DNA from: Cytidiella melzeri
Lineage: Eukaryota > Basidiomycota > Agaricomycetes > Polyporales > Irpicaceae
Length of the DNA stretch: 49,622 nucleotides
Assembly (NCBI GenBank): GCA_022592445.1
Contig: JABYQR010000323.1
Location: 1 to 49,622 of the forward strand
Reading direction: 5' to 3'
The notes beneath the pieces were generated by a model. It was not told where the DNA came from. It ran no database searches and was given only the letters and a program-made list of their open reading frames with translations. A program made the translations under genes and the position numbers. Positions within the stretch are counted from its first letter, which is position 1; each line of letters begins with the position of its first letter. This document shows, in pieces, positions 3,322 through 49,200 of the stretch.

Positions 3322-3342
3322 CTCTGTCATTTGCACTGCTAG

Positions 3343-3402
3343 GTGAGTTACTGCATGTAACTTAGTATCATATCTTATTACCTCTGTCATTTGCACTGCT
3401 AG
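3343..3402 (+). other. LTR intron, element B
   Basis: 60 nt, GTGAGT donor and CTAG acceptor. The last 21 nt of the preceding exon (from CTCTGTCATTTGCA) are repeated exactly as the last 21 nt of the intron. The only ATG of the first ~1.47 kb of the predicted transcript (3354) lies inside this intron. Confidence 0.65.
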
Positions 3403-3648: not shown

Positions 3649-3717
3649 GTAAGCCATCGCCGTCCGTCTTGACGTGCTTGATCGCTGACTCGTTCACTTT
3701 CCGTGGTTGATTCTTAG
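3649..3717 (+). other. Leader intron creating the ORF1 start codon, element B
   Basis: 69 nt: donor GTAAGC after ...TTTGAGA, CTGAC branch-type motif at about 3684, acceptor TTCTTAG. Splicing joins A (3648) to TG (3718-3719) and makes ATG CCG AAA. Identical in layout to C (22417-22485) and analogous in D (39321-39393). Confidence 0.65.
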
Positions 3718-4475
3718 TGCCGAAAGAATCCCACTCCCGTTTCACCGCTCGTCCAGATCCTTTGCACAAGGATCTGAACCAAGCGCGTCGAGAAGTCAAG
3801 ATCCATCGCGCCTTGCCCCAGGCCGTGTTTGATCAACTCGACGCAGAGCACGCACGTGGCAAGAGCCACAAGTACACGGAGAAGGAGCTCAAGGCTATTG
3901 CCTCCTACGTCGGTCGCCGTAAACCCAAGGGTTCTGCCCTCACACACAGATTCCCCACTGCAGAGGAGTTTGAGAAACTCCGTGCTGAGTCCAAAGAGTT
4001 CGCTGCCCGTACCGCACGCGAACGAGCTGAGGCCTTAGCAAGTCTTCCTAAGAAGCCTTCGTTAGCAGAACGCTTCCCAGCCCGGCCAGCCACCAACCCT
4101 GGTGCAGCCCTCATAGCCGCAAAGCCGACTCTCATCGACTTCCAAAAGCACACCCTTGAAGACCTTCAAGGAATCTTCACTCCAAAGCTCACCGCCACCC
4201 TCCAACGCCTGTCGATTCTACCCACCATCAACAAGTACCAACAGCTTAACGAAGGCACGAGGCGTAACTTTGAGAAAGAGAAACAGAAGTTAGAAAAGCT
4301 TCTGGAGGAGCTACCAACCCGAGCCACTGTCATCACTCAGCGTGAGTGGCAGCTGCTGGATTGGGGTTTAAAGGCAATAGGAGGAATTAGTTTCAAGGGT
4401 CTAAGAAGGAATTACGTACAAGTTTTCAAAGGTTTAGACAGAGTTTGGTCGGACGAGTACTTCGTATCGTTCTAG
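3718..4475 (+). CDS. ORF1 of element B, uncharacterised retrotransposon protein
   Basis: 252 codons counting a split Met. Without splicing the frame opens at GTG, not ATG, and contains no internal Met. The product is basic, with an N-terminal region rich in R/K, a probable helical stretch (EEFEKLRAESKEFAARTA, about residues 82-99), the motif TLIDFQK (about 140), GIFTPKLTATL (about 152) and a conserved C-terminal block REWQLLDWGLKAIG (about 212). The stop is a single TAG and the same frame continues into gag. It is almost identical to ORF1 of C and clearly related to ORF1 of D. I recognise no named domain. The frame is intact here although gag and pol of B are broken. Confidence 0.75.
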
Positions 4476-10004: not shown

Positions 10005-10835
10005 TTGTGGCTGTGTCAGCAGTGAGTACTGCATCTGATTGTTCCACAAAGTTTCAAGACTGTTAGTTGCTCTCTCAGCAGGAGTTACAATCAGGACACG
10101 GCCTGTGGCAGTTCCAATGGGGGTGATGCAGCTCAGACATCAACAGGACATGGTTGCATCAGCAGCAACCACTGCATCATTGTTGCTTAAGGTTTCACAA
10201 CCATGAGTTGCTCTCTAAGGAGGAATTAAAATCAGAACATAGCCTGCGGCAGTTCTAATGGGGCTGAAACAGTTCAGACATCAACGAGATGTGGTTTCAG
10301 CAGCATAAAGCACTGCCTTTGATTCTTCCATACAGTTTCACAACCACCAGTTGCTCTATGAGCAGGAGTTACAATCAGAACACAGCAGCTCTGATAGGAG
10401 TGAGGCAGTGCAGACATCAGCTAGATGTGGTTTCATCAGCAGCCAGTGCTGCGTTCAATTGCCCCACAAAGTTTCACAACCACTACTTTCTAAGCAGAAA
10501 TTACAGCTGTAGCAGCTCCAATAGGGGCGTCGCAGTCCAGACATCAACAGCACATCATTGCATTGGCAGCAGGCACTGCATTCAATTGCTTCAACAAGTT
10601 TTACAACCATTAGTAGGAGTTACAATCACAACACAGCCTGTGGCAGTTTCCATGGGAGTGAGGCAGTTCAGACATCAACAGGGTGTGGTTGCATTAGCAG
10701 CAAGCGCTGCATCTGGTTGTTTCATAAAGTTTCACACCCACTAGTTGCTCTCTGAGCAGGAGTTACAATGAGAACACAGCCTGTGGGAGTTTCAATGTGA
10801 ACGAGGCAGTTCAGACATCAACAGGAAACATGTAA
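10005..10835. repeat. Tandem array of 120-145 bp units
   Basis: Six or more diverged units, each containing GGAGTTACAATCAGAACACA, then CAGTTCAGACATCAACAG, TGCATCAGCAGCAA and TTTCACAACCA. Units begin near 10081, 10219, 10364, 10497, 10616 and 10759. Further units occur at 11625-11940 and, inverted, at 13840-14130. Small open frames here are composition effects without coding signs. Confidence 0.75.
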
Positions 10836-12735
10836 CATGTTTGAGCAATTGATCTAATGAGACACCCCCAAGCTGTTCATTGTTGAGCCAAGTAATTCTC
10901 CAGAATTAGCAGTGAACACTGCACAAGATTAATGACAAGATATATGAAGCCCCTTGCTACCATTGGTGACTACTTTTATCATTGTATGGCTCCTTTTCCT
11001 GCAACCAAACTTATCAATTGTAGTAAGATCACTTTATCCCAGATCAAGTTGCCTATCAAAAGTGTCACCAATAGCAAATGCCTGTTATACAGTCAATATT
11101 CATGGCCAGATGGCTTGGCAAGGTCCTTACCAGGAACAGAGTTGTTTACTGAGGTTTTTTTGGTAACAAAGTCACAGGCGCAATTTACTATTTCATGCTG
11201 TACAATTTATTCAATTTTCTATCAATAACATAACCACTAGTAACCCTGCTCCTGCAGTTTATCAAATTGTATCTAGATTATCAAACATAGTTCAACACCA
11301 TTAACGAGAAGACACATGTCAAACAATCTTTATCTCTATGCTCTACTCCACAAACTTGTTGTAATTCTGTACTCACACCCATTGTTGCATTTCAAACAAT
11401 ACAGCACAGTCCCTCTTCTTTCATGAACAACTGTGTGCTCCAGTGAAGAAAAACCACCAAATTACTATACATGACTCATTGAAGAAGCTATTCCCAACAA
11501 AATTACTTGTTCAGGCTGCTACCAGCACCAAGTTTACTTACAAATCTGGCTCAAAAAGTAATATGTCATTCAATCTTCAGGAATTGTACTTGCCGCTTGC
11601 TGGCCTTGCTAACACTAGTTCCAATAGGGGTGATGCAGTTCAGACATCAACAGGACATGGTTGCATCAGCAGCAACCACTGCACCAGATTGTTCCACAAA
11701 GTTTCACAACCATCGGTTGATCTCTAAGAAGGAGTTACAATCAGAACACAGCCTGTGGCAGTTCTAGTGGGGCTGATGCAGTTCAGAAATTGACAGGACA
11801 TGGTTGCATCACCATAGAGCACTGCCTTTGGTTCTTCCACACAGTTTCACAACCACTAGTTGCTCTCTGAACAAGAGTTACAATCAGAACACAGCCTGTG
11901 GGAGTGTTAATGTGAACAAGACAGTTCAGACATCAACAGGACACATGTAACATGTTTGAGCAATTGATCTAATGAGACACCCCCAAGCTGTTCATTGTTG
12001 AACCAAGTAATTCTCTAGAACCAGCAGTGAACACTGCACAAAATTAATGACAAGATATATGAAGCCCCTTGCTACCATTGGCAACTACCTTCATCAATGT
12101 ATTGCCCCTTTTCCTGCAACCAAACTTATTAATTGTAGTACAGTCACTTTATCCCAGATCAAGTTGCATATCAAAGATGTCACTAATAGCAAATTCTTGT
12201 AATACAGTCAATATTCATGACCAGATGGCTTGGCAAGGTCCTTACCAGGAACAGAGTTGTTTACTGAGGTTTTTTTTGGTAACAAAGTCACAGGTGCAAT
12301 TAACTGATTCATGCTATATGATTTATTCAATTTGCTACCAATGACATAGTCACTTGTAGCCCTGCTCCTGCAGTTTACCAAATTTTATCTTGATCATTTA
12401 ACATAGTTCAATACCATTAAGAAGAAGACGCATGTCAAACAATCTTTATCTCCATGCTCTACTCCACAAACTTGTTTTGATTCCGTGCTCACACCCATTG
12501 TTGCACTTGTAACAATACAGTACAATTCCCCTTCTTTCATGAATGATTGTGTGCCTCAGTGAAGACAAACCACCAACTTACTAAACATTACTCATTGAAG
12601 AAGCTATTCCCAACAAAATGACTTGTTCAGGCTGCTACCAGCACCAATTTTACTCACAAATCTGGCTCAAAATGTAATATTTCATTCAATCTTCACAAAT
12701 TGTACTTTTCGCTTGCCAGCCTTGCTAACGTTAGT
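10760..12735. repeat. Direct duplication, period about 1.11 kb
   Basis: 10760-11618 and 11874-12735 are copies at about 90% by eye; both run from GAGTTACAATxAGAACACAGCC to the block TTGCTAACxxTAG. The ends resemble the terminal repeat of the 19437-20017 element (AATTGTACTTGCCGCTTGC). A third, inverted copy follows from 12731 and is split by the solo LTR at 13053. No gene is visible. Confidence 0.75.
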
Positions 12736-16189: not shown

Positions 16190-18101
16190 ATACAGGCACA
16201 TTGGTAAGAAAAGGTATTACTAGTAACAAAATTACTTATAACGGTAAGTATTCCTGACATGTTTGTAATGAAAGTTGTTACTAGTAACAAAATTACCTAT
16301 CAAAGTAAGTGTTCCTGGTAGATAAGTTATTATAAGCAATACATTGATAACACAAGTGAGAATTCAGGACTAAACAACAAATTAAGTAATATGGACAAGG
16401 TAGTTGTACAAGCTGTAATCAACCATAATGTTATTCATCCAAGTAAGTGTTGTGGATGGCCCGACTAGCCCTTATCTTTCGCAAATTTACCTATTGTTTT
16501 TATCTGTAAAACTCCGGCCTGCAACCCAGTTGCAACCTCTCTGCACAAACTCCTTTGCACGTCTATTAAGCGCCCGTATCACATGGCTTAGATGCTCCAC
16601 ACGGTCATGTTACTTGCTACTACGTCACACTGGCATGTGACTTAGCTTAAGTAAGACCACATGGCTACAACCACATGGCTCAGCCCATAGCTAGGGTTTG
16701 ATGTCATAGATGACATCCACATGGACTCCTTTTGTTCTTTCCTTATTGTTCTCTTTATGGAAGGATGTTCTCACAGGTGTGGGAATGGAACAAATAGTTG
16801 GTCTCCTTTTAGATAGATCCTCTCACAAGTAGAGTTCTTGGCAAGGTCTAGACAATAGCTATTGTTCTCCTTTAGGTAGTTCTTTTGTTCTTCGTTCACA
16901 CGGCTTCTTGCAAAGCCTGCCCTTAACATGGTCTGTGCGCAGGTCCCTGAAGTCTATATAAGCAGCTGCATGTACGCTCCTAGCTCCCATCTCGACCTCT
17001 TGGTCTTTACTGCGCTAGGTAAGCAAACCCCTCTTGTACTACATGGCGGGTAGTATCAATCTAACTTGGTCTTTACTGGGCTAGATTTCTGAATAAGTTT
17101 GATAGCTGGTGAACACATTGTGCTTCACACCTGCCACCACCTCTTTGTTGTCATCCACAGCGTGTCCCTGTTTGTCACGTCGAGCCCTGTCTCTGTGTCA
17201 GTAAGTATTCCACCTGAGGTAGTAACAAAAGTGAAACTTGCTAACAAAATTACTTGAAAAGGTAAGAGTACAAATTTACTTATAGAAAGTCAGTCCTTGT
17301 CGTAATTAGGTGAGAAAAGCTGTCATTGATGACAAATTCACTTATCAAAGTAGGAATTCCAGTGAAATTCAGAACAAAGCTGGTTATTGGTAACAAGACT
17401 GCTGATAAAGGTGAGGATTTAAAGCTATCCAACATCAAGTGTTCTGGTCATGTTAGTAACAAAAGCTGTTTCAAATAATAAAGTAACCTGTTTTAATCAA
17501 CACTCAAGTACTGTGGGCAAGGTAGTAATAGAAGCTGTTCTCAATAGACATACTGTAATGTCAAGCATTCCAGGCAAGAAGTAATAAAAGTGGTTACTTG
17601 GAAGAAACTTATGTGAGTCAGTATTTTGGTTCAATTGGACATCAAGTCATTAGTCATATAATTTTCTTAAGAAAGTACAGATCAAAATTTAACAAAATTT
17701 AAGCATTCTGAGCATGTTATTAATGAAAGCTGTTACCAGAAACAATATTGCTTAGGTACTTTGGTTGAACTATTTTCTGGGCAAGTTAGTCACAAAAAGT
17801 TGTTAATGGTGCCAAAATTGCTGATAAAAGTAATATTTCCTTGGCAAATTAAAAACAAAAGCTGTTACCAGTAAACAAGTTACAAGTTACTTGTAAAGGT
17901 AAGGGTTCACAATCACTTAGGAAGTCAATGTTATGGGCAAGCGAGCAACTATACAAGATTGCATATAAAAGTGAGGATCCCAAACCTGTTAGTCACAAAA
18001 ATTGACACCAGTATCAAGATTATGCTCATGAAAGTAAGTATTCCAGGCTTGTTAGTCATGGAAGTTGAAGTTGTTGCTAGTCACTTATAACAGGGTTGGT
18101 C
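16190..18101. repeat. AT-rich minisatellite, units about 60-80 bp, split by a solo LTR
   Basis: Diverged units of the type GTTAGTAACAAAAGCTGTTA, followed by AAAATTACTTATAAAGGTAAG and TATTCCAGGCA, occur at 16190-16447 and again at 17201-18090. The family-2 solo LTR at 16448-17200 separates the two blocks. No coding frame. Confidence 0.7.
16448..17200 (+). mobile_element. Solo LTR of gypsy family 2, GTAAG duplication
   Basis: 753 bp, TGTTGTGG ... GTGTCA, flanked by GTAAG at 16443-16447 and 17201-17205. Homologous along its length to the 5' LTR of D (38490-39245). It has a CTATATAAG TATA region, the primer-type motif ATCTCGACCT (16989-16998) and the LTR intron with its repeated 20-mer; here the two copies differ at one base. 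It arose by LTR-LTR recombination. Confidence 0.92.
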
Positions 18102-18896
18102 TGTCGCGGAGCAACTGCTGCTATACTGATAAACTCTAAACAAGGGTGGAGAAGAGGGGGAGTGGAAGTGGAAGTGGATCTCCAACAACAACAACGAGGT
18201 CAAAGTTGATGATAAGCAGGCAAGCAGGCTCAGAGGCCGGATACTAGCAGTGCAAATGACAGAGTTAATAGGGGATGATACTTAAGTTACAGGTAGTAAC
18301 TCACCTGGCAGTGCAAATGACAGAGAGGTCAAGATGCAGAGCTAGGGAGGGTAAGGGCTACTATATATACTGTTGGCTGGGTGGTCTGTGCGCAAGTTCC
18401 CACACTACGGACTGGAGTAACTGTGGGGCTGGAGTAACAATAGAACAATAAGGGACCAGGGTAACTGTCAAGGACCAGAGTAGCTGTCAAAGACCAGGGT
18501 ACGTAGAACAATAGAGCTAGAACAATAGGACAATAGAACAATGGAATAGGAACAATAGAACAATAGAAACTGGGGGAATCCCTGGGGAATCTCTAACAAT
18601 AGATAGAAGACAATAGATGAAAGACAATAGGACAATAAGAACTGGGGGAATCCCTGGGGAATCCCTAACAATGGAAGGAGAACAATAGAACAATAGCCTA
18701 GGTTGATCCAGAACCGCTCCAGATGGAGTCTAGGGTTTGCGTCTGGACTATTGATAAATAAGGCAGGATGTCACGTGACCTGGGTTAGGTCTGGTAACAC
18801 TCCTAGCCGGAAAATAAGCGCTCTGGATAGGCGCCTAATGCTATAAACTTGTGACAGTGTTGGAAAAATCCGGTCTCTGTTGGACTATCCATGTCA
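18102..18896 (-). mobile_element. Solo LTR of gypsy family 1 (minus), TGGTC duplication
   Basis: 795 bp, reverse complement of the family-1 LTR (TGTCGCGG ... CCATGTCA on plus), flanked by TGGTC at 18097-18101 and 18897-18901. It contains the primer motif (AGGTCAAGAT on plus, 18326-18335) and the LTR intron with its 21-nt repeats, which differ at one base here. Confidence 0.93.
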
Positions 18897-21572: not shown

Positions 21573-21880
21573 TGACATGGATAGTCCAACAGAGACCGGA
21601 TTTTTCCAACAATGTCACCAGTTTACAGCCTTAGGCGCCTATCTAGAGCGCTTATTTTCCGGCTAGGAGTGTTACCGGACCTAACCCTAACCCGGGTCAC
21701 GTGACATCCTGCCTTATTTATCAATAGTCCAAACCCAAACCCTAGACTCAATCTAGAGCGGTTCCAGATCAACCTAGGCTATTGTTCTATTGTTCCTCTT
21801 CCATTGATGGGGATTCCCCAGGGATTCCCCCAGGTCTTATTGTTCTATTGTTCTTATCCTATTATTGTTCTACGTACCCT

Positions 21881-21956
21881 GGTCCTTGACAGTTACTCAG
21901 GTCCTTGACAGTTACTCAGGTCCTTGACAGTTACTCAGGTCCTTGACAGTTACCCT
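21881..21956 (+). repeat. Four tandem 19-bp units in the LTR U3
   Basis: GGTCCTTGACAGTTACTCA x4 (the last unit ends in CCC). The 3' LTR also has four. E and the minus solo LTR have two, B has one. The position upstream of TATA suggests enhancer-like repeats; this is inference. Confidence 0.8.
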
Positions 21957-22043
21957 GGTTCTTTATTGTTCTATTGTTACTCCAGTCCCACAGTTACTCC
22001 AGTCCCTAGTGTGGGAACTGGTGCACAGACCACCCAGACCCAG

Positions 22044-22087
22044 TATATATAGTACCCCTTACCCTTCCTGGTTCTGCATCTTGACCT
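22044..22087 (+). promoter_or_regulatory. LTR promoter and self-primer motif, element C
   Basis: TATATATA at 22044-22051, then ATCTTGACCT at 22078-22087. The second motif is the exact reverse complement of 22314-22323. In Tf1 the transcript 5' end primes reverse transcription, so this motif should lie at or next to the transcript start. Confidence 0.72.
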
Positions 22088-22108
22088 CTTCGTCATTTGC
22101 ACTGCCAG

Positions 22109-22169
22109 GTGAGTTACTCCATGTAACCTAGTATAAGCATAATATTAACTTCGTCATTTGCACTGCCAG
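22109..22169 (+). other. LTR intron, element C
   Basis: 61 nt, GTGAGT ... TTAAC ... CAG. The 21 nt before the donor (22088-22108) and the last 21 nt of the intron (22149-22169) are identical, beginning CTTCGTCATTTGCA. The first exon copy directly follows the self-primer motif. The intron holds the only ATG (22121) between the start and Gag. Confidence 0.68.
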
Positions 22170-22313
22170 TATCCGGCCTCTGAGCCTGCTTGCCTGCTTA
22201 TCATCGACTTTGACCTTGTTGTCGTCGTTGGAGATCCACTTCCACTTCCACTTCCCCTCTTCTCTGCCCTTGTGTAGGGTTTAGCAGTACAGCAGCAGTC
22301 GCTCCGCGACATT

Positions 22314-22323
22314 AGGTCAAGAT
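22314..22323 (+). other. Self-priming site of element C
   Basis: AGGTCAAGAT, two bases after the LTR, pairs perfectly with the predicted transcript 5' end. The TT spacer is consistent with the two extra bases normally removed by integrase. Confidence 0.75.
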
Positions 22324-22416
22324 ACCATACAGCTACCGGCACGACTGCCCTTAGCTTGGATCAAGTTTTCCTGTCCCCCCAGTTTTAAAAAAGTTTATTC
22401 CCCCCTACGTTTGAGA

Positions 22417-22485
22417 GTAAGCCATCGCCGTCCGTCTTGACGTGCTTGATCGCTGACTCGTTCACTTTCCGTGGTTGATTCTTAG
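22417..22485 (+). other. Leader intron that creates the ORF1 AUG, element C
   Basis: 69 nt. Donor GAGA/GTAAGC, CTGAC branch-type site with A at 22456, pyrimidine-rich tract, acceptor TTCTTAG. The exon before ends in A (22416) and the exon after begins TG (22486), so splicing forms ATG CCG AAA at the start of ORF1. Element D has the same junction logic with different intron sequence. Confidence 0.7.
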
Positions 22486-23243
22486 TGCCGAAAGAATCCC
22501 ACTCCCGTTTCACCGCTCGTCCAGATCCTTTGCACAAGGATCTGAACCAAGCGCGTCGAGAAGTCAAGATCCATCGCGCCTTGCCCCAGGCCGTGTTTGA
22601 TCAACTCGACGCAGAGCACGCACGTGGCAAGAGCCACAAGTACACGGAGAAGGAGCTCAAGGCTATTGCCTCCTACGTCGGTCGCCGTAAACCCAAGGGT
22701 TCTGCCCTCACACACAGATTCCCCACTGCAGAGGAGTTTGAGAAACTCCGTGCTGAGTCCAAAGAGTTCGCTGCCCGTACCGCACGCAAACGAGCCGAGG
22801 CCTTAGCAAGTCTTCCTAAGAAGCCTTCGTTAGCAGAACGCTTCCCAGCCCGGCCAGCCACCAACCCTGGTGCAGCCCTCATAGCCGCAAAGCCGACTCT
22901 CATCGACTTCCAAAAGCACACCCTTGAAGACCTTCAAGGAATCTTCACTCCAAAGCTCACCGCCACCCTCCAACGCCTGTCGATTCTACCCACCATCGAC
23001 AAGTATCAACAGCTTCACAAAGACACGAGGCGTAACTTTGAACAAGAGAAACAGAAGTTAGAAAAGCTTCTGGAGGAGTTACCAGCCCGAGCCACTGTCA
23101 TCACTCAGCGTGAGTGGCAGCTGCTGGATTGGGGTTTAAAGGCAATAGGAGGAATTAGTTTCAAGGGTCTAAGAAGGAATTACGTACAAGTTTTCAAAGG
23201 TTTAGACAGAGTTTGGTCGGACGAGTACTTCGTATCGTTCTAG
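22486..23243 (+). CDS. ORF1 of element C, uncharacterised conserved protein
   Basis: 252 codons with a split start codon (A at 22416 plus TG at 22486-22487). Unspliced, the frame is preceded by TGA at 22476 and opens at GTG. There is no Met codon and no ATG in any plus frame across it. Compared with D, the blocks LIDF, DL.GIF.PKLTA, REWQLLDWG.KAIG, SFK.L and SD.YF are conserved, so protein-level selection acts over the whole length. The helical, charged middle (about 80-105) could be coiled coil. Basic overall, with no signal peptide or membrane segment seen. It ends in one TAG and the same frame runs on into gag. Nucleic-acid binding or a Gag-accessory role is possible but unproven. Confidence 0.78.
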
Positions 23244-23549
23244 AAATACAGTGTGGCTTCTCAAAGTCCCAGAAGTAGTGTTTGGTCTAGAGATCATCTC
23301 CCCTGTGAGAACTACCCACACGCTTTCAATCACCAGACCATCAGAGACGAGTGTTACGACCCAGAAGAAGGACACGAAGCCTGTGAAACTCAGCCCTGTC
23401 CAAACCGATACAACGGTATTGCATATCCCGGTCGGTACGCAAACCAGTATCGACCCATTCATCATTGGCAGGAAGCTCGTATCCTTGAATCCCTCCCACC
23501 CTTGCCTGAAGAAGACTTCGATCGAACCTTCACGCAGGAGCAATACCAG
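23244..23549 (+). other. Conserved open segment between the ORF1 UAG and the Gag ATG, element C
   Basis: 102 codons in frame with both ORF1 and gag, without ATG. It contains four cysteines around CENYP ... CYDPEEGHEACETQPCPNRY. The matching D segment (40122-40355) has CDNC ... YECDKQPCPNRY. Conservation of QPCPNRY and the cysteine spacing implies it is translated, by UAG readthrough or an unseen splice. Confidence 0.6.
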
Positions 23550-24809
23550 ATGGATTCCACCAACATGTCCCAGCATGCTTCTAGGGCAGCAACCCCAGCC
23601 CCCGCACAAGAACCGTCTCCGCCCCCCACAGCAGAAAAACTTCTGCATGCGCTACTCCTCGGTCAGCAACAGCTGACACAAGCGATCACAGCGCTGGTTC
23701 AGAACCAGCAACAACCAGTTAACAACAGGTCACGGGAAAGGGTTGTAGAAAAACCCGCTAGTTTTAAGGGCAATGCTAGTAGTGACGCGCGTCGCTTTCT
23801 GGCCGCCTTCTCAATGTACGCACAGTTTAATGAGAAACTGTCGCCATACAATGCCCAAGGGGGTCAGACCCGATTAGACCACCTCTGGATTTCGTCGGCT
23901 CTGTCATTTATGACAGAAGATGCGGCAGTTTGGGCTACGCCTCACATGGACTTGATTGCCAGTCATCAAATGGCATTCAATGGTGACTGGGACGACTTCA
24001 GAACGGCGTTCAAAGCACGATTTGAACCGGTTGATGAAATGGTGGATGCCAAGGCCAAGCTCAGGGAGCTGTGGCAAGGCAAAAAGACGGTTCCCGAGTA
24101 CACGGCCCGATTCCGGGAGATCATGGATAGGACAGGCTACTCAACACAGGACCTCAGGGATCGGTATTATGAACATCTGAGCACCACAATTAAGGATGAA
24201 CTAGTCCACACCGCACGGTCCCATGTCACCCTTGTCGATCTCATCAATGTGGCCACCGACATTGACAATCGTCTTCGGGTTCGAGCTCAAGAAAAAGCTC
24301 GTGAGCAAGGTCGAACCGTCCCCAACGTGTTCAAATCTACCCCGGTCTCCACCTCGTCCCCGGCTCCTTTTGTTCAACCGTCTCGCGATTCCAATGCTAT
24401 GGAAATTGATGCCACTAAAGTCGGTCCCAATGGGAAAACACGTGCTGATTTCATGAAAGCAATGAATGGAAGATGCTACGGATGTGGATCTAAGGAGCAC
24501 CAGAAGAAAGACGGCAAACATGATCGAGAATTGTGTGGACACTGTGGAGGCAACCATCAGACGCAAGTGTGCCAAAGCCGGTTCCTTGGGTACCCACCTA
24601 GGCAACAGAAGGTGGCTGCCAACACTCTGTTCGATCCGTCCACTTCGGCCCCCTCGTCGTCCTCGTCCGCGAGGCCCTTACCTACCCCGCCCGCCGCAAC
24701 CGTCGCCAGCTCTTCGTCTTCAACTCCGTTTGACTACGATGCCATCATGAAGCAGATGTCATCGCTCACGGATCAAGTCAAGCAGCTGGGAAATCAAAGG
24801 GATTTTTAG
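23550..24809 (+). CDS. gag: Gag of element C
   Basis: 419 codons from ATG 23550 (MDSTNMSQ) to TAG 24807-24809. The N-terminus is Pro-rich. The capsid-like region (EKPASFKGNASSDARRFL, FMTEDAAVWATPHMDL, FKARFEPVDEMVDAK, VPEYTARFREIM) matches retrotransposon Gag of the gypsy type. Two cysteine clusters follow: CYGCGSKEHQKKDGKHDREL with nearby C, then C-x2-C-x3-H-x4-C. A Ser/Pro-rich tail ends in a coiled stretch (MKQMSSLTDQVKQLG). It is intact. The ATG is the first one on the unspliced RNA apart from that in the LTR intron. The stop lies in GGGATTTTTAG, where pol overlaps in the -1 frame. Confidence 0.88.
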   Translation: MDSTNMSQHASRAATPAPAQEPSPPPTAEKLLHALLLGQQQLTQAITALVQNQQQPVNNRSRERVVEKPASFKGNASSDARRFLAAFSMYAQFNEKLSPYNAQGGQTRLDHLWISSALSFMTEDAAVWATPHMDLIASHQMAFNGDWDDFRTAFKARFEPVDEMVDAKAKLRELWQGKKTVPEYTARFREIMDRTGYSTQDLRDRYYEHLSTTIKDELVHTARSHVTLVDLINVATDIDNRLRVRAQEKAREQGRTVPNVFKSTPVSTSSPAPFVQPSRDSNAMEIDATKVGPNGKTRADFMKAMNGRCYGCGSKEHQKKDGKHDRELCGHCGGNHQTQVCQSRFLGYPPRQQKVAANTLFDPSTSAPSSSSSARPLPTPPAATVASSSSSTPFDYDAIMKQMSSLTDQVKQLGNQRDF

Positions 24810-28638: not shown

Positions 28639-29377
28639 TGACATGGATAGTCCAACAGAGACCGGATTTTTCCAACAATGTCACCAGTTTACAGCCTTAG
28701 GCGCCTATCTAGAGCGCTTATTTTCCGGCTAGGAGTGTTACCGGACCTAACCCTAACCCGGGTCACGTGACATCCTGCCTTATTTATCAATAGTCCAGAC
28801 CCAAACCCTAGACTCAGTCTGGAGCGGTTCCAGATCAACCTAGGCTATTGTTCTATTGTTCCTCTTCCATTGATGGGGATTCCCCAGGGATTCCCCCAGG
28901 TCTTATTGTTCTATTGTTCTTATCCTATTATTGTTCTACGTACCCTGGTCCTTGACAGTTACTCAGGTCCTTGACAGTTACTCAGGTCCTTGACAGTTAC
29001 TCAGGTCCTTGACAGTTACCCTGGTTCTTTATTGTTCTATTGTTACTCCAGTCCCACAGTTACTCCAGTCCCTAGTGTGGGAACTGGTGCACAGACCACC
29101 CAGACCCAGTATATATAGTACCCCTTACCCTCCCTGGTTCTGCATCTTGACCTCTTCGTCATTTGCACTGCCAGGTGAGTTACTCCATGTAACCTAGTAT
29201 AAGCATAATATTAACTTCGTCATTTGCACTGCCAGTATCCGGCCTCTGAGCCTGCTTGCCTGCTTATCATCGACTTTGACCTTGTTGTCGTCGTTGGAGA
29301 TCCACTTCCACTTCCTCTTCCCCTCTTCTCTGCCCTTGTGTAGGGTTTAGCAGTACAGCAGCAGTCGCTCCGCGACA
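28639..29377 (+). repeat. 3' LTR of element C
   Basis: 739 bp, differing from the 5' LTR by about five substitutions (four transitions, one transversion). Followed by CCAAG at 29378-29382. Confidence 0.96.
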
Positions 29378-32337: not shown

Positions 32338-34776
32338 TTAATCCCGCGGGAACACGGCCGACAGCCACTGGTTGATCTCAGCAACCTGTGGTGAGGTGAT
32401 GATCTCGATGTCGAGGGACAGTAGTTCACCTGTCACCCCACGCAGCCATCAACGGACATTGTCCTCCGTGGGTTCTTCGGTCATGGCAGTTGTCCCGAAC
32501 AACTGCAATGCTGTAGGCTTGATCTCCTCCTTGCCAACCGCGATGAGAGCTCGAATGAACTCGATGGACGTCGTGGTCAACGAGGACAGTAGTCCCAGGC
32601 GGGCGACTCTGATCATCCCCCTGAGACGGTCCGAGTTTCCTACTCGGCGAGTGACTGGGTCCCTTTCGATTCCAGTGATCTCGACGTTTGGATTTGCGTT
32701 GAGATAACAAATCCAAGTCTCAATGACCTGGGGTGCTAGACTTGCGCCCGGGTCACTCGTGGGCACCATTGGGGGTGCGGGCCTTGTGTTTGCCTGCCGG
32801 CGAGGGGGACGGTTTGCAGGTTGCCCTGCACGAGTAGTGTGTTGTGCGGGTTGCCCCGCGCGTGGTGGTAGGCGCATCATGTTGGATGGCCCGGAGGGAG
32901 GTGGTCGGCTCTCGATGCTGGCAAGCCATTCCTCGTGCGTGTGCGTGGACGGTCCCGGCGCGAAGGGGTTGTGTCGAGGGGGTGAGGACGTGGACGGGGC
33001 AGCAGGTTGACCTGCATGCAATGTCTTTGCCTTCTTCTTCTTCTTCCCCTTCTCAGCCTGCTGCTGAGTCCTGTCTCGCAGTGGGTACCAGGTAGGCCTT
33101 GGTGGGGACTCCCTCACGGCTTCCTGTTTGGCAGCCGTTCGTTGATTGCGGGGGACCTGGTTGCAGTGATGGACGTAGAGCTTCCAGCACTCGTACGCCT
33201 CAGAGTTGCACTGATCGTGCGCAACGTCGCGGAGGTGCCTAACCTCGCCGACGGTCCTGGGAAACAGCCAGTGCCCAGGGTTCTGTCCATTGGATGCGTA
33301 CAGCTGCAGAGCTCTGCGGCTGTTGTCGAGCTGCCTCAGCAGACTGGGCCTCACACGTGTGAGGCGCGTGCAGTCAGGTCCCACAGCACCCCAACGTACG
33401 GTCCCTAGACCAGTGGTGAAGCCGTGCCGCTCAGACTCGGTCTGGCGGCCTAGTGGCCAGTGGGCTGGGTAGCCCAGGAACCCGTAAGGGTAGAGCTTCA
33501 GCTTGTGCTTCGTCCAGTTCACCCCCGTGATTGGATTGATCATGTTTTTGTTTGGGGGCACGTCTGGCAGGCGGTCCTCACAATCCACTGGGATACCGTA
33601 TATAATGCGATATCCTCGGTTCACCACGTCGGGGCGAATGATTATTGGTACGCCCTGCGGGTCCCTCAGTGGGATGAGCCTGTTGTACACACTTGTGTTG
33701 CTGATGTGGACGTGGGCATTGGGGTCCCTGGCTCCCGGGGCGCGGTACCAATCGATAGTTGGGGGCCATTGCTGTGAGGCTGGCTCCAGTCGTTGTGCGA
33801 GTGCAGCCCCTTGCGGGGCGGGTGTGATACGCTCTGCGAGCAATACTGGTGGAGGCGTTGCCTCGCGAGGTTCAGTCTTGTCAACTGTCATGCGCTCCTC
33901 TAAGGGTGCGCGCGGGGGAGTTGCCTCCAGGTGTAAAGTCCTGGATGGACCCGCCTGTCTCTCCTCCTCATCAATCTGGCGGTCGTACTCCTCTGCCTCC
34001 TTCCTTGCCTTTGCACGAGCCCTTTTTGCCCCACGCTTCGTGGTTGGCTTGTCATTGTATTCGCTCCAATCCTCCTCCCACTCGTCCCGCCCTTCTCTGT
34101 AGTGGTCGCGAGCAATCTCAAAGTGGTGAATCTGCTTCTTGAGATCCTCCGTCGGGACCGTTGCAAAACGGTTCGATGCCGCTTCCCTAGATCGTGCGCG
34201 TCCACACTGTGCAAGCTCCCTCCAAAGATCCTCACTCTTGAACTCCTGGTACTTGAGTTCGGATTCTGAACGGCCCAGAGCGTCCTTGGTCCCGCTGAGG
34301 CGTTCCTTGCAACGTTGCAGCTTCTCTAGATAGTAGTCGCAGTTGTGCCGTAAGCGGTCTACGTTGTCGTGTAGCCAATTGTTCTCCTGACGGAGATAAT
34401 TGAGCTTGCGCGAGTCGGCTCGTGGAGCTGTGACAGTGTCCCGTTGATTTTGCCGTGTAGGCAGAGATTGCAGCCGCTGTTCCACCACAAGGGCGTTGTT
34501 GAACGAGGCGGACTGGGCGGGGCTGGCCCTGTGCACCATCCAGTCAGAGCACACGGGGCAGCCGATAGGGTGCACAACTCCTACACCTGGGATATGGGCC
34601 CATGGTGCGTTGTCGTCGCCAGACAGCGGTGAGGAGCTCCTCCTACGCTTCCGTGAGGAGCGGGAGGACTCTCCTCTGGACTGCTGTGAGTCCCGTGAGC
34701 CGCTTGCACGGCGATCCTCGCGTGAGCGAAGAGAGGGTGTTGCACGGTCTGTGCAATTTTGGGGGCAGCGAGGCAA
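32338..34776 (-). pseudogene. Large uncharacterised ORF (about 812 codons, one internal TGA)
   Basis: The frame is open from 34776 to a TGA at 32449-32451, and then 36 more codons (WLRGVTGELLSLDIEI..., ending SAVFPRD) to TAA at 32338-32340. The first in-frame ATG is only at about residue 80. An ATG near 34800 (MRTVTRPLASLP) would join the frame if a run of five C's were four, so a one-base slip may have broken the start. Features: Arg/Ser-rich N-terminus, CPVCSDW, long coiled-coil regions (about 130-260, RQENNWLHDNVDRLRHNCDY, DLKKQIHHFEIARDHYREGR), a conserved-looking central part (IIRPDVVNRGYRIIYGIPVD, about 390) and a Pro-rich, basic tail. GC-rich, unlike the flanking repeats. It may be a Gag-like protein of a non-autonomous LTR element (PPT and candidate LTR lie just downstream) or a host gene. 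No family recognised. Confidence 0.45.
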
Positions 34777-35092
34777 GTGGTCTCGTGACCGTCCTCATCC
34801 TTGCTCGTCCCAAGAGCCTTGGCTTCTGCTTGTTGAAATTTTGTTTGGAGTGAGTTGTAGAGTTTGAGAAAGTGAAGTGGTGTTAAAGCGTGAGCCTGAG
34901 TGAGTTTGTTGGGAGGTGGTGGTCGTTGGAAAGAGAGGTCACCGCTTGCAGCATGCAGTAAACGGCAATCAGGGGCGTCTACGCGTATCCCAATGTGGGA
35001 TTTGCATCCGGAGCGCCCAAATTTTCCGCCAAGTGAATGAAATTGACAGAACCTTGGAGATCCAAGGTATTTTGTGCGGTGTCCCGCCGATC
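34777..35092. other. Spacer between element F pol and the large ORF
   Basis: On minus it contains TTGGCGGAAAATTTGGGCGC (35011-35030), which could be a primer-binding region, then a pyrimidine-rich leader. No complete LTR identified. Confidence 0.35.
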
Positions 35093-38996: not shown

Positions 38997-39040
38997 TATA
39001 TAAGCAGCTACATGTACGCTCCTAGCCCCCATCTCGACCT
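38997..39040 (+). promoter_or_regulatory. LTR promoter and self-primer motif, element D
   Basis: TATATAA at 38997-39003; ATCTCGACCT at 39031-39040 pairs with AGCTCGAGAT at 39248-39257 in 9 of 10 positions. Confidence 0.68.
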
Positions 39041-39060
39041 CTTGGTCTTTACTGGGCTAG

Positions 39061-39128
39061 GTAAGCAAACCCCTCCTGTACTACATAGCTAGTAGTACCC
39101 AATACTAACTTGGTCTTTACTGGGCTAG
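39061..39128 (+). other. LTR intron, element D
   Basis: 68 nt, donor GTAAGC, perfect TACTAAC branch site (39103-39109), acceptor TAG. The 20-mer CTTGGTCTTTACTGGGCTAG ends the exon (39041-39060) and is repeated exactly at the intron end (39109-39128). Confidence 0.75.
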
Positions 39129-39247: not shown

Positions 39248-39257
39248 AGCTCGAGAT
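39248..39257 (+). other. Self-priming site of element D
   Basis: AGCTCGAGAT, two bases (TT) after the LTR, as in family 1. The fifth base of the transcript motif (T to C) and its partner (A to G) differ together between families. Confidence 0.68.
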
Positions 39258-39320: not shown

Positions 39321-39393
39321 GTACGTCTCCGGTCTTCTCATACCGTTGAGCTATACTTAGGTCGTCCGTTTCTACCCCCTGCACATTGTCTAG
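39321..39393 (+). other. Leader intron that creates the ORF1 AUG, element D
   Basis: 73 nt, donor GACGA/GTACGT and acceptor GTCTAG. Splicing joins A (39320) to TG (39394) and forms ATG CCT AAG. No strong branch consensus is visible, so this intron is less certain alone, but position and junction match family 1. Confidence 0.6.
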
Positions 39394-40121
39394 TGCCTAA
39401 GGACACACGCCCCCGTTTTTCTAAGAACCTCTCTACAACTGAGCCTCAGCTCAAGAGGTCTCTTCCATCATCATTTCTTGACGCTCTCGCTGAAAAGCGT
39501 AAGAGCGGTCAACCTCATTGCTGGTCTGACAAAGACCTGGTCACTGTCGCGAAGTACGTGTCCAAGAAGCCGCCTGTCAAAGGCATCACCCTCACTGTCC
39601 CCTCTTACGAGGAAAACCAACAACTTCGCGCTTCTGCCAGAGCATACGGAGAACGCGCCGCTGAAGAACGTGCTCGCACTCTAGCTGAGCAGCGAACCCA
39701 CAAGCCAACTCTCTCGGAGCGGCTTGCTAAGCTTCCCCCGCCCACTCCCGCTCCCGCTGCACCCAAACCGATGTTGATAGACTTCAAGAAGCTATCACCG
39801 GTTGACCTCGTCGGCATCTTCAGGCCGAAACTCACCGCCGTCCGCACCCACCTGCAAGCTCTCACAGAACTTGAAGAACTCCTGAACCGCGCCAACCCCG
39901 ACCACCGTCGCGCGCTGCTTCACCTTGTCAACAAGGTTAATCGTTTCCTCAACCGAGTCAACAATCTCGCACCTGTCATAGCAGACCGCGAGTGGCAGCT
40001 CCTAGACTGGGGTTGCAAAGCAATTGGGAAAGTTTCCTTTAAGCAGCTTTGCAAAAACTACGACAAAGTCCTTGCACAACTTAACGTAGTAAATAGTGAT
40101 AGCTATTTTGAGTGGATCTAG
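39394..40121 (+). CDS. ORF1 of element D, uncharacterised conserved protein
   Basis: 242 codons with a split start codon; unspliced it opens at GTG. One internal Met (ATG 39771) is the only ATG between the transcript start and the Gag ATG. Matches family-1 ORF1 from the MPK start, through ARAYGERAAEERARTLAEQ (about 72-90), PMLIDFKK, GIFRPKLTAV and DREWQLLDWGCKAIG, to SDSYF near the end. Basic and probably helical. It stops at one TAG (40119-40121), with gag continuing in the same frame. Function unknown; conservation between families indicates a real product. Confidence 0.75.
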
Positions 40122-40355: not shown

Positions 40356-41606
40356 ATGGATCAGAACCAACAGAACGCTGCTCCCGACGCCGCCCCAGCT
40401 GCCGCTGCTAACCTGAGTGCTCAGGACATCCTCAACATGTTCGGGGTCTTGACACAAAGAATGGTAGACCTCACCAATCAGGTGGCTGCCTTGGCAGCTG
40501 TTCAGGCACCAGCCATTGCCGCGGCCACGCACACGTCCCAAGAACGGAGTATTGTCGAGAAACCAGTCTCTTTCAAGGGAAAGATGTCGTCAGAAGCAAG
40601 GCTTTTCTGACATGCTTTCATCGTCTGGGCCCAGAACCAGGGCAAAGCGTTCTTTCAACAGGACGCGCAAGGCCAGGTCTGGGTGGACAACAATGGCGCG
40701 AGGATCTTTGATCCTCATAAACTCATCACCAGTGCCCTGTCGTTCATGCAGGACAACGCTGCTGACTGGGCTCACCCTCACATTGAGGAGCTGGCCAGTA
40801 GCAAACCAGCTTTTGGCAATAGCTGGGATACATTTATCGAGGCTTTCAAAGCCAAACTTGAGCCTATAGACGCTGTCATGGAGGCCAAGACAAAGATCGC
40901 CAACATGAAGCAAGGCAACAAGACCTTCGCCGCCCACATCTCCGAGTTTGAGACATGGGCCCCTCGCACTGGCTGGAGCCAGCAGGACCTCTTTGATTGT
41001 CTCAAGTCGAGCTTGAGCACCGAGTACTTGCAACGCGTCTTGTACTTCCAAACCCGCGCCGCCACCTATGACGCACTCAAAGACCAATGCAAAGCGGTCG
41101 ATGCTCAACTTGCAGACCTCCGCAACAGCACTGGCAAGGTCATGGTGGACAGCTCGTCAGGGCATGGCAAGTCCCATCAGCAGGCGTTCCGCGATCCCAA
41201 CGCTATGGAGATTGACGCCTCCCGATTCTCTGCCTCGTTTGACTCGCTCTTTGCGGGTCTGGGCAAACAGGAGATCTTCCAGAAATGGAAGAAGAAGATG
41301 AGCAAGCGTTGCTCGGTTTGTGGATCTGAGAGTCACAAGAAGAGGGACTCAAAGCACCCAGACAACCCGGTCTGCAACCACTGCGGTGGTACCGGTCACT
41401 GGGGGGCAGTTTGCCTGAAACGGCTCCAAGGCGTCCCTAAGGGACAGAAAGTCGCTGTGACCTCGTCGACCTCGTCGACCACTAATGCACCGAAGCAAGA
41501 TGCATCCAGTGACAAGGATGCTAAGATTTCTGCTCTCAAGGACATGCTGGACATCCAGAAAAAGCAAATGGATGAGATGGCAGCCAAAATCAATGCGGTG
41601 TTTTGA
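40356..41606 (+). pseudogene. gag: Gag of element D (one nonsense codon)
   Basis: ATG 40356 (MDQNQQNAAPDAA) to TGA 41604-41606. The capsid-like region (EKPVSFKGKMSSEARLF, FMQDNAADWAHPHIEE, FKAKLEPIDAVMEAKT) corresponds to family 1. A zinc-knuckle-like cluster, CSVCGSESHKKRDSKHPDNP, is followed by a canonical C-x2-C-x4-H-x4-C (CNHCGGTGHWGAVC). The tail is a coiled stretch (LKDMLDIQKKQMDEMAAK). An in-frame TGA at 40608-40610 (after EARLF) breaks it early. The end overlaps pol in the -1 frame at TTTTGA. Confidence 0.88.
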
Positions 41607-45516: not shown

Positions 45517-46216
45517 TGTCGCGGAGCGACTGCTGCTATGCTGATAACCCTAGAAAGGGAGTGAAAGAGAGAGGAAGGGGGTGGATCTCCAACGACGACA
45601 ACGAGGTCAAAGTCGATGATGGGCAGGCAAGCAGGCACTTGAGGCCGGATACTGGCAGTGCAAATGACGAAGTTAATAGCATGCTTATACTAGGTTACAT
45701 GGAGTAACTCACCTGGCAGTGCAAATGACGAAGAGGTCAAGATGCAGAACCAGGAAGGGTAAGGGGTACTATATATACTGTGTCTGGGTGGTCTGTGCAC
45801 CAGTTCCCACACTAGGGACTGGAGTAACTGTGGGACTGGAGTAACAATAAAACAATAAGGAACCCGGGGTAACTGTCAAGGACCTGAGTAACTGTCAAGG
45901 ACCGGGGTACGTAGAACAATAGAACTAGAACAATACAACAATAGAACAATAAGACCTGGGGGAATCCCTGGGGAATCCCCATCAATGGAAGAGGAACAAT
46001 AGAACAATAGCCTAGGTTGATCTGGAACCGCTCAAGACTGAGTCTAGGGTTTGGGTCTGGACTATTGATAAATAAGGCAGGATGTCACGTGACCCAGGTT
46101 AGGGTTAGGTCCGGTAACACTCCTAGCCGGAAAATAAGCGCTCTAGATAGGCGCCTAAGGCTGTAAACTTGTGAAAATATTGGAAAAATCCGGTCTCTGT
46201 TGGACTATCCATGTCA
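45517..46216 (-). repeat. 3' LTR of element E
   Basis: 700 bp, minus orientation (TGTCGCGG ... CCATGTCA on plus). Two 19-bp units, primer-type motif (AGGTCAAGAT on plus, 45734-45743), and LTR intron with identical 21-nt repeats. Confidence 0.94.
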
Positions 46217-46234: not shown

Positions 46235-49200
46235 TCATCGCCTCGATGAACTAAGACCAGGGACTCTACCATCTGCCCACTCGAGGTCAGATGCTATAGC
46301 TTCTGTGATGTTCTCCAACGGTTTCCAAGGAATGGAGTCGAAGAGTGCTTTGGGTAATCTCTGAGGCGCGTTGGTATGTCTGGCGTGGAACTCTGCAATG
46401 CTCTCTTTCGCATTGGTCAGATTTACTGCAGGTTCCCACGTTACATCGCCTTCTCCATAGCCTTTCCATTTGACTAGGTACTGCATTTGCTTCCGATAGA
46501 TCCGACTGTCTAGGATCTTCTCGACTTCATAGACTTGTTGATCATCTACTATGATCGGTGCTGGTGGTTCTGGTATGAGGCCGTTTACTTCGTTTCCTCG
46601 ATACGGAGATAGCCGTTCGACGTTGATGTTGTCGTGAATATGATATCCGGATTTGAGTTTGATCCGATATGTATGTTCACCGGTCTTCTGAAGAACTGTG
46701 AAGGGACCAAGCTGTCTAGGCCCTAGCTTGTCAGACTGCTGATGTACTTTGACGTTCTTGGAAGACAACCACACGAGGTCCCCTTCCTTGAAGACTGGAG
46801 TAGCTCTACGGGTATATCCGGAAGCTTCGACCATCTTTTCCTTAGAGAGACGCGAGGCAGCTTCGGCTTCTGCCCGAACCTGTCTGAGCTTTTCTAGGCG
46901 TGCGTCTAGATTTGGCATACGACTTTGACGACCAATAGGAATGGTAAAGTCCGGTAGATACCCGTACATGACTTCAAACGGAGAGTGCTGAGTAGATGAG
47001 TTGACCCGGGAGTTGATGGCGAATTCAGCCACTGGGATGTATTCTGCCCAATCATCTTGTCGTTGGTCAACAAAGAGTCGTAGAATCTTTTCTACCTCTT
47101 GATTGGTTCTTTCCGTTTGACCATTGGCCTGAGGGTGGTAGGCGGTAGTCATGGCGCCAGTGATGCCTAGCCGTTTGTACAACGCTTGCATGACACGAGC
47201 TGCAAACTGGGGTCCTCTATCGGATACGAACTGTCGGGGAATGCCGTGGAGCCTGAACACCTCTCTGATGTGAAGGTCGGCTATACCGTCTGCTGTGACC
47301 GTAGATTGAGTTGGAATTACATGTGTTTGCTTGCTGTACAAGTCTGTGTACACGGCAATCATGTCAAAACCTTTACTGCGTGGGAGTGGTCCGACTAAGT
47401 CTACACCAACCACCTGCCAAGGTCCGTCTGGTACTTCGATAGGCTGTATTGGGGCAACCGGGTGCTGTGCTGATTTGGTCCGCTGACACTTGTCACATCC
47501 GAGGACGTATTGTTCTACGAATGATGCCATACGAGGCCACCAATAGTGCCGTGTTACTAGTTCCAGGGTTGCGTGTTTGCCCGGATGTCCTGCTGGTAGT
47601 GCATCGTGGCATCGACGTACAATCTCCTTTCGGACTTCTCGATCTTTAGGAATGTACAGCTTTCCTTTGTAGTACACCAGTCCGCTGTCTTCTTCCCACT
47701 CTAGTCCACCATCTGTCAACTTCCGGGGTCCGTCCTTCTTTAGCTTGGCTAATCCCTGAACCACCTCTGCTTCTCGAAGGCTGATGTCTCTGATTCGAGC
47801 TTCCAATGGGTCTGTTTCTAGAGTACTTGAGGCAGCTATGGTTTGGAAGTATTCGGGTTTCAGCACAACTTGTTCTTTGTTGTCTGATGCATCTAGTACT
47901 TCCAAGGTTCTAACTCTGGACAGCGGGTCACCTTGAGTAAGGGTCTTTCCGGGTTTGTGGGTCAACACGAAATCAAACCGGCTAAGGTATAAGGACCACC
48001 GAGCTTGTCGTCTAGACAGGTCCTGAGCGGTACGCCAGTACTGCAGATTCTGATGATCTGTGATAATCTCGAAGGGCGCGGGTAATCCTTCCAGATAGTG
48101 ACGCCAATCTTCGAGAGCTCTGATGATAGCGAGCATTTCTCGATCATAGATCTCATAGTTCCGTTCTGCTTCGGCCATAGACTGAGACCGGAACGCTACC
48201 GGGTGCCATTGTCCATCCTCTAGTTTCTGCAATAGAACTCCTCCGGTTGCAAAGCCAGACGCATCAACTTCAATACGTGTGGGGCGATCGGGTTCCCATG
48301 TGACTAGGATGGGTTCCTGAGTGAACGCATCTTTGAGCATTTGAAAGGCGTTCTGCTGTGCTTCTCCCCACTTCCAAGGTTGGTCTTTCTTGGTGAGATC
48401 GTGAAGAGGACGAGTATGCCGCGCAAAGTCCTTGATGAAACGTCGGTAGAAGTTGGCAAATCCAATGAAACCGCGTACATCACGGAGGTTCTGTGGTACC
48501 GGCCAATTGGTGATAGCTTCTATTTTACCCGAGTCCATACGGATCTTTCCATCACCAATGATTAAACCTAGGTACTCGACCTGTGACTGTTCAAATTCGC
48601 ATTTTTCGGGGCGAAGATACAAGTCGTTGGCTTCAAGTCGAGATAGTACCTCATGAACAATTTTCCGGTGTTCCGCAATGTCTGAACTGAAGACAAGGAT
48701 GTCATCTAAGTAGACCGAGACCTTTCCTTCCGCAATGAGATCAGCAAAGATGGAATTCATCATTGCTTGAAACGTGGCCGGAGAATTGGTCATGCCAAAC
48801 AACATCACCTTAGGCTCAAACAGCCCTCGGTTTGTCACAAATGCACCCTTCCATTCGTCATTTTCCTTGATCCGAATGTTATGATAACCCCATCGTACGT
48901 CAAACTTGGTGAAGATTCTGGCTTGACGAAGCCGATTGGTAATATCTGATACCAAGGGAGTGGGTAGCGGTTTTTGATTGTGATGTCATTTAACCGTCGA
49001 TAATCCTGAACAAGCCGGAGCTTGCCGTCCTTCTTCTTGACGAAGAATACCGGTGAGGCCATAGGCGATTTGGAGGGAACAATATATCCTTTCGCTAGGT
49101 TTTCCTCAATAAACTTGTCTAGCTCCGCTTGTTCATTTGGAGACATGGGGTAGACCTTGGATCTGAACATCTTGGGGTTCTCGGTCAGATCAATCGTATG

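Follow-up and report, generated by a model that had tools for sequence, protein, structure and literature searches.

Splicing across a split start codon probably selects between ORF1 and Gag in two retrotransposon families of Cytidiella melzeri

Introduction

Retroelements must use one RNA as both message and genome. The question raised by a 49,622-nucleotide (nt) stretch of DNA from the basidiomycete Cytidiella melzeri (contig JABYQR010000323.1 of assembly GCA_022592445.1, in its whole length hereafter called the window) is how this choice could be made in elements that carry, ahead of gag, a long open reading frame without a start codon. The window holds copies of two families of long terminal repeat (LTR) retrotransposons, including copies B, C and E of family 1 and copy D of family 2. 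In copies B, C and D the frame that precedes gag, which we call open reading frame 1 (ORF1), has no ATG at its start in the genomic DNA. Here, we describe sequence features pointing to an ATG that is made by splicing, such that the choice between the two uses of the RNA appears to hinge on a single A meeting TG.

A short intron splits the start codon of ORF1

In all three copies, a GT-AG intron of 69–73 nt has its acceptor directly before the sequence TGCCNAARGA, and the exon upstream of it ends in A. In copy C the intron is 69 nt long (22417..22485, + strand; GAGA/GTAAGC...TTCTTAG/TGCCG), and ORF1 (22486..23243, +) would take its ATG from the exon-final A at 22416 and the TG at 22486-22487, ending with a TAG at 23241-23243. 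Copy B has an intron of the same 69 nt (3649..3717, +) followed by ORF1 at 3718..4475 (+), and copy D has one of 73 nt (39321..39393, +; GACGA/GTACGT...GTCTAG/TGCCT) followed by ORF1 at 39394..40121 (+). The AUG that splicing would make has a purine at position −3 in copies C and D. The intron positions in C and D, the intron lengths in B, C and D, and the missing ATG had all been given in the initial annotation of the window, and they are exact to the base.

That annotation had also suggested aligning many genomic copies of both families at the junction. We searched the 49.7 Mb of the same genome for further copies and aligned 39 of the 40 listed family-1 matches (the remaining one is cut by a contig end) and all 40 listed family-2 matches, both lists being lower bounds. 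The exon-final A, the GT, the AG and the TG that follows it are kept in 39/39 family-1 and 39/40 family-2 copies, the sole exception being L082, in which the acceptor is short by one base. Counted by letter, variants at the seven critical sites amount to 0 of 273 in family 1 and 1 of 280 in family 2, and those in the rest of the intron to 28 of 2379 and 27 of 2600, or ∼1%. Because the copies are young, this conservation of the junction is only modest evidence.

Genomic copies joined at the predicted junction

Splicing of the ORF1 intron is firmly supported by eight copies in the same genome, one of family 1 and seven of family 2, that lack the intron at exactly the predicted junction. These copies were sought using patterns for the predicted joined sequence, with backward patterns as a control. 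The family-1 pattern gave 8 matches at ≤2 mismatches, of which the 1 exact match is a real copy (L123, which joins 22416 to 22486 in the numbering of copy C) and the other 7 have no similarity to the element; its backward control gave 3. The family-2 pattern gave 7 matches, all of them real copies related to copy D (L131–L137; 6 exact and 1 with one mismatch), and its control gave 0. When the eight copies are aligned, exactly the intron is absent, with leader and ORF1 continuous on either side. There is no repeat at the ends of the ORF1 intron that could account for its deletion, so eight identical deletions are not expected by chance, and the copies are best read as relics of spliced RNA that was reverse transcribed. 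They bear out the earlier prediction that the intron is spliced in life.

The same copies contradict a second claim of the initial annotation, namely that the intron is retained in all copies. In family 2, to which this tally is confined, 298 sites keep the donor (pattern matches at ≤3 mismatches) versus the 7 intron-less copies, or ∼2%. That intron-less copies exist suggests that spliced RNA is sometimes reverse transcribed, and that they make up such a small share suggests that most templates kept the intron. We additionally placed the relics in a tree of the leader and the start of ORF1, from which L131 and L075 were left out. For all 6 family-2 relics tested (without L131), the nearest sampled relative is intron-bearing, as in the pairs L134 and L073 (99.4%), L135 and L092 (98.7%), L136 and L080 (93%), and L133 and L069 (90%). 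The only relics that group together in the tree are L132 and L137, each at the end of a long branch, and their nearest sampled copies by identity bear the intron. Since the intron-less copies are scattered in the tree, the losses look repeated, without visible spread.

ATG is avoided in ORF1 and on the path to gag

If splicing supplies the AUG of ORF1, what would ribosomes meet on RNA that keeps the intron? Copy C contains 0 ATG over the 1064 nt between the acceptor and the start of gag (mean of dinucleotide shuffles 7.4; 0 of 1000 shuffles reached 0), with none in any frame of ORF1, and copy B has no ATG over the same path. The following 1063 nt, within gag of copy C, contain 30. Copy D has 1 ATG in 962 nt (shuffle mean 7.3; 2 of 1000 as low), which lies at 39771, in frame within ORF1, and is private to this copy, being absent at that place in the other aligned copies. 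Across the alignment, ORF1 is ATG-free in 31/39 family-1 and 27/40 family-2 copies, and in the copies richest in ATG (L019, L032, L041 and L075) the end of ORF1 is no longer recognisable, as expected for interrupted copies.

We measured the depletion on intact ORF1s, which number 25 of the 39 copies in family 1 and 20 of the 40 (19 distinct) in family 2. Off-frame ATG was found 1 time versus 73.6 expected from codon-order shuffles in family 1, and 3 times versus 59.3 in family 2, and no other of the 64 trinucleotides is as strongly depleted in these two frames. In frame, it accounts for 1 of 6275 codons in family 1 and 1 of 4579 in family 2. A similar scarcity is seen elsewhere, as 15 homologues (five from Phanerochaete carnosa) have only 6 methionines in 3565 residues after the start, suggesting that ATG avoidance is wider than this genome.

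The path can be extended upstream to the probable start of the RNA if the ORF1 intron is left in place while another predicted intron, located in the LTR, is taken out (both the start and the LTR intron are described below). Over this distance, there is no ATG before gag in 19 of 23 family-1 elements (1399–1420 nt) and 16 of 20 family-2 elements (1057–1265 nt), these being the elements whose piece extended to a recognised gag start. For copy C the count is 0 ATG in 1411 nt, compared with a shuffle mean of 10.4 and a minimum of 2 in 2000 shuffles. The initial annotation had proposed that unspliced RNA is the Gag message, and this near-absence of ATG supports the proposal, short of demonstrating it.

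Splicing as a probable choice between ORF1 and Gag

The sequences show an intron with an A/TG junction, copies that lack exactly this intron, an ORF1 in which ATG is avoided whatever the frame, and hardly any ATG between the putative RNA start and gag. We consider it likely, on this sequence evidence, that splicing chooses between ORF1 and Gag. Removal of the 69–73-nt intron would bring the A to the TG and create the ORF1 AUG, turning ORF1 on, while RNA that keeps the intron would present almost no AUG ahead of gag, such that ribosomes would scan to the gag AUG and produce Gag(-Pol). The unspliced RNA would then be both genome and Gag message. On this reading the two RNAs would coexist, ribosomes would scan for over 1 kb before reaching gag, the genome would usually be unspliced RNA, and the spliced RNA would be the source of the ORF1 protein.

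Several observations weigh against this reading. The unspliced ORF1 retains an in-frame GTG at its start, which is a possible weak start, and upstream ATGs do occur in 4/23 family-1 and 4/20 family-2 elements, as well as in copy D. The region between the ORF1 stop and the gag ATG of copy C (23244..23549, +) is a spacer of 102 codons that has no ATG and is open in the gag frame, and in family 1 the ORF1, spacer and gag lie in one frame. The spacer is free of stops in that frame in 18 of 23 distinct family-1 pieces, and substitutions among the 23 number 134/73/426 at codon positions 1/2/3, a protein-like bias toward third positions in which changes common to related copies are counted more than once. 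Such constraint implies that something translates the spacer, by readthrough or from a non-AUG start, and plain scanning to the gag ATG does not explain it. The same test on 3 family-2 pieces gave no codon-position bias (29/24/28). In family 2, gag starts ∼40–90 nt past the ORF1 stop in 17/20 elements, in a variable frame, and with this short distance reinitiation on spliced RNA is possible there. Additionally, all 20 intact family-2 ORF1s terminate in TAG.

The shared frame and constrained spacer of family 1, and the short distance and uniform stop of family 2, would fit an arrangement in which ORF1 and Gag are both translated from one spliced RNA, with Gag arising by stop readthrough or reinitiation and the intron-bearing RNA serving as genome only. 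We regard this as unlikely, since neither readthrough nor reinitiation requires the loss of off-frame ATG in ORF1, a depletion that exceeds that of every other trinucleotide among the 64. The family-1 stop also varies (19 TAG, 3 TGA and 1 TAA among 23 distinct pieces), and readthrough in particular is at odds with family 2, where 11/20 elements have gag in a different frame from ORF1, as judged by distances with damaged copies included. The loss of ATG would need another origin if the intron were an ordinary constitutive 5′ intron, with ORF1 always on, intron-bearing RNA a minor leftover, and composition or a methionine-poor protein responsible for the missing ATGs. Good splice signals and the existence of intron-less copies agree with such an intron, but the codon-order and dinucleotide shuffles indicate that the off-frame loss is not an effect of protein or composition, and the ∼2% of intron-less copies in family 2 indicates that the intron was present in most templates, making this explanation quite improbable. 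We give still less credence, and in fact hardly any, to the idea that chance deletion or faulty assembly produced the intron-less copies and that ORF1 starts without splicing at the GTG or another non-AUG codon. The in-frame GTG would permit such a start, but eight deletions would have to begin and stop at matching positions in families whose introns differ, with no repeats at those ends.

The ORF1 protein is helical by prediction (mean predicted local distance difference test score, pLDDT, 75; predicted template modelling score, pTM, 0.44), with its C-terminal bundle better modelled. None of 18 ORF1 members has a Pfam match at E ≤ 0.001, and the protein gave no informative match otherwise; that it regulates RNA retaining the intron is a guess. 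Since both splicing outcomes are recorded in the genome itself, the proposed switch is testable in any fungus expressing such elements.

A predicted repeat-bounded LTR intron and a self-complementary primer site

Apart from the split start codon, we found three features that go beyond the initial annotation: the ATG-free ORF1, a predicted LTR intron with a repeat, and a primer site complementary to the RNA itself. In copy C the primer-binding site AGGTCAAGAT (22314..22323, +) lies 2 nt past the LTR, and its exact reverse complement, ATCTTGACCT (22078..22087, +), marks the place where the RNA would begin and would form the self-primer. Next to it, at the end of exon 1, is the first copy of a repeat that we call the tag (22088..22108, +), identical to a second copy at 22149-22169 in which the predicted LTR intron ends (22109..22169, +; GTGAGT...TATTAAC...CCAG). 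This intron contains an ATG at 22121 with a TAA directly after it. The predicted LTR intron of copy B (3343..3402, +) has tags CTCTGTCATTTGCACTGCTAG at 3322 and 3382, an identical pair of a third tag type, and that of copy D (39061..39128, +; GTAAGC...TACTAAC...CTAG) has tags at 39041 and 39109. Copy D also carries the likely family-2 self-primer ATCTCGACCT (39031..39040, +), with a primer site at 39248-39257 that has one mismatch in this copy.

The arrangement is regular in that the final 20–21 nt of the LTR intron repeat the final 20–21 nt of exon 1, and the tag fills exactly the interval between the putative cut that frees the self-primer and the LTR splice donor. The two tags are identical in 80 of 91 elements and 1–2 letters apart in 11. 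There are three tag types, all of them present in this one window, and each type is found on both sides. The 10 nt directly before the first tag are the reverse complement of the primer site with 0 mismatches in 75 of the 91 elements, 1 in 9, 2 in 1 and ≥3 in 6, and the families differ at one primer pair, T:A versus C:G, a compensating difference that preserves pairing. Because what appear to be the first 10 nt of the RNA are complementary to the site that follows the LTR, the RNA probably primes its own reverse transcription, with the primer site complementary to a 5′ end that is itself placed from sequence.

The LTR intron contains ATG in 48 of 78 elements, and when it is left out 73 of 78 leaders are ATG-free up to the ORF1 donor. 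It would be removed from both RNAs, and in many copies its removal would delete the sole AUGs of the leader. We tentatively suggest, with our own opinion tilted slightly toward doubt, that reverse transcription writes the LTR intron back and that the ORF1 intron is a one-way switch that cannot be restored. In such a process, strong-stop DNA from spliced RNA would pair with the second tag of the 3′ LTR, and extension through the intron would restore it in the new LTR. The ORF1 intron not being restorable, its loss would leave only scattered relics. If true, write-back would let a retroelement carry an intron across reverse transcription, a step expected to erase introns. LTRs that lack the intron are not rare, pattern counts without versus with it being 162 versus 1151 and 42 versus 577, but intron-less LTRs prove nothing alone because deletion between the tags gives the same product. 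Among the eight copies without the ORF1 intron, the LTR intron is kept in 6 and absent in L132, and L131 breaks off at the tag.

The elements and their setting in the window

Copy C has its 5′ LTR at 21573..22311 (+; blastn within the window, flanks inspected), which is 99.3% identical to a partner at 28639-29377, and CCAAG adjoins the outer end of each, indicating a full-length insertion. Its gag, read from the ATG (23550..24809, +), matches Retrotrans_gag. Copy E lies on the − strand with a long open pol (45517-46216 and 46235-48985) in which Pfam finds RVT_1, RT_RNaseH, Integrase_H2C2, rve, SH3_Tf2-1 and Chromo. We assign family 1 to the Ty3/gypsy chromoviruses because this pol encodes a reverse transcriptase, an RNase H and an integrase that carries a chromodomain at its C terminus. 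Copy D is a damaged or truncated copy, since its gag (start at 40356; 40356..40610, +) is ended by an in-frame TGA at 40608-40610, its ORF1 has the private ATG, and its LTR stretch 38700-39250 matches only 16660-17203 elsewhere in the window.

Apart from the named elements, LTR matches occur at 16660-17203 (family 2) and 18102-18896 (− strand, family 1). Several direct repeats, spaced by ∼143 and ∼1115 nt, lie 3′ of copy B at 10008-12570, and a 781-amino-acid open frame at 32449-34794 (−) has no Pfam match at E ≤ 0.1.

Comparison with known systems

In springer-subclade insect endogenous retroviruses, env is spliced from an AU dinucleotide (PMC12992720). The elements described here are similar in that a start codon is split between exons in a Ty3/gypsy-type element, here as A/TG in 39/39 and 39/40 copies plus the eight joined copies. 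They differ in that the device serves env in the springer account (PMC12992720), while here it serves an ORF1 that lies upstream of gag, belongs to no known family and is almost AUG-free. Rice tungro bacilliform virus (RTBV) and the badnaviruses are described as using leaky scanning through AUG-free ORFs (PMC5902531), and like RTBV, where long ORFs without internal AUGs let ribosomes reach the polyprotein AUG, our elements have a long upstream ORF that is AUG-free in most copies. In the RTBV description (PMC5902531), AUU serves as the start of the upstream ORF within that same RNA, unlike in ORF1, which would have its AUG only after splicing. By analogy, these elements would unite two separately known devices, the intron-split start codon of springer env and scanning past AUG-free ORFs as in RTBV.

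The Ogre/Tat elements of plants likewise have an extra ORF before gag. Their expression is described as controlled by partial RNA splicing, a further likeness, and in that description splicing makes no start codon, unlike here (PMC6317226, which also treats the Tf1/Sushi and Tcn1 groups). A primer site complementary to the RNA's own 5′ end is shared with Tf1/Tj1 (PMC4600332), and the pol of copy E matches SH3_Tf2-1. In contrast to Tf1/Tj1 as presented there, the pairing segment here is followed by a predicted repeat-bounded LTR intron, and an extra ORF precedes gag. Finally, the intron-less copies resemble the spliced integrated retrotransposed elements (SpIREs) of human L1, in which genomic copies also record spliced retroelement RNA; L1 is a non-LTR element, and the part of the SpIREs account that we draw on describes no start codon made at the junction (PMC5860796), whereas in C. 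melzeri the relics preserve the very join at which A meets TG.
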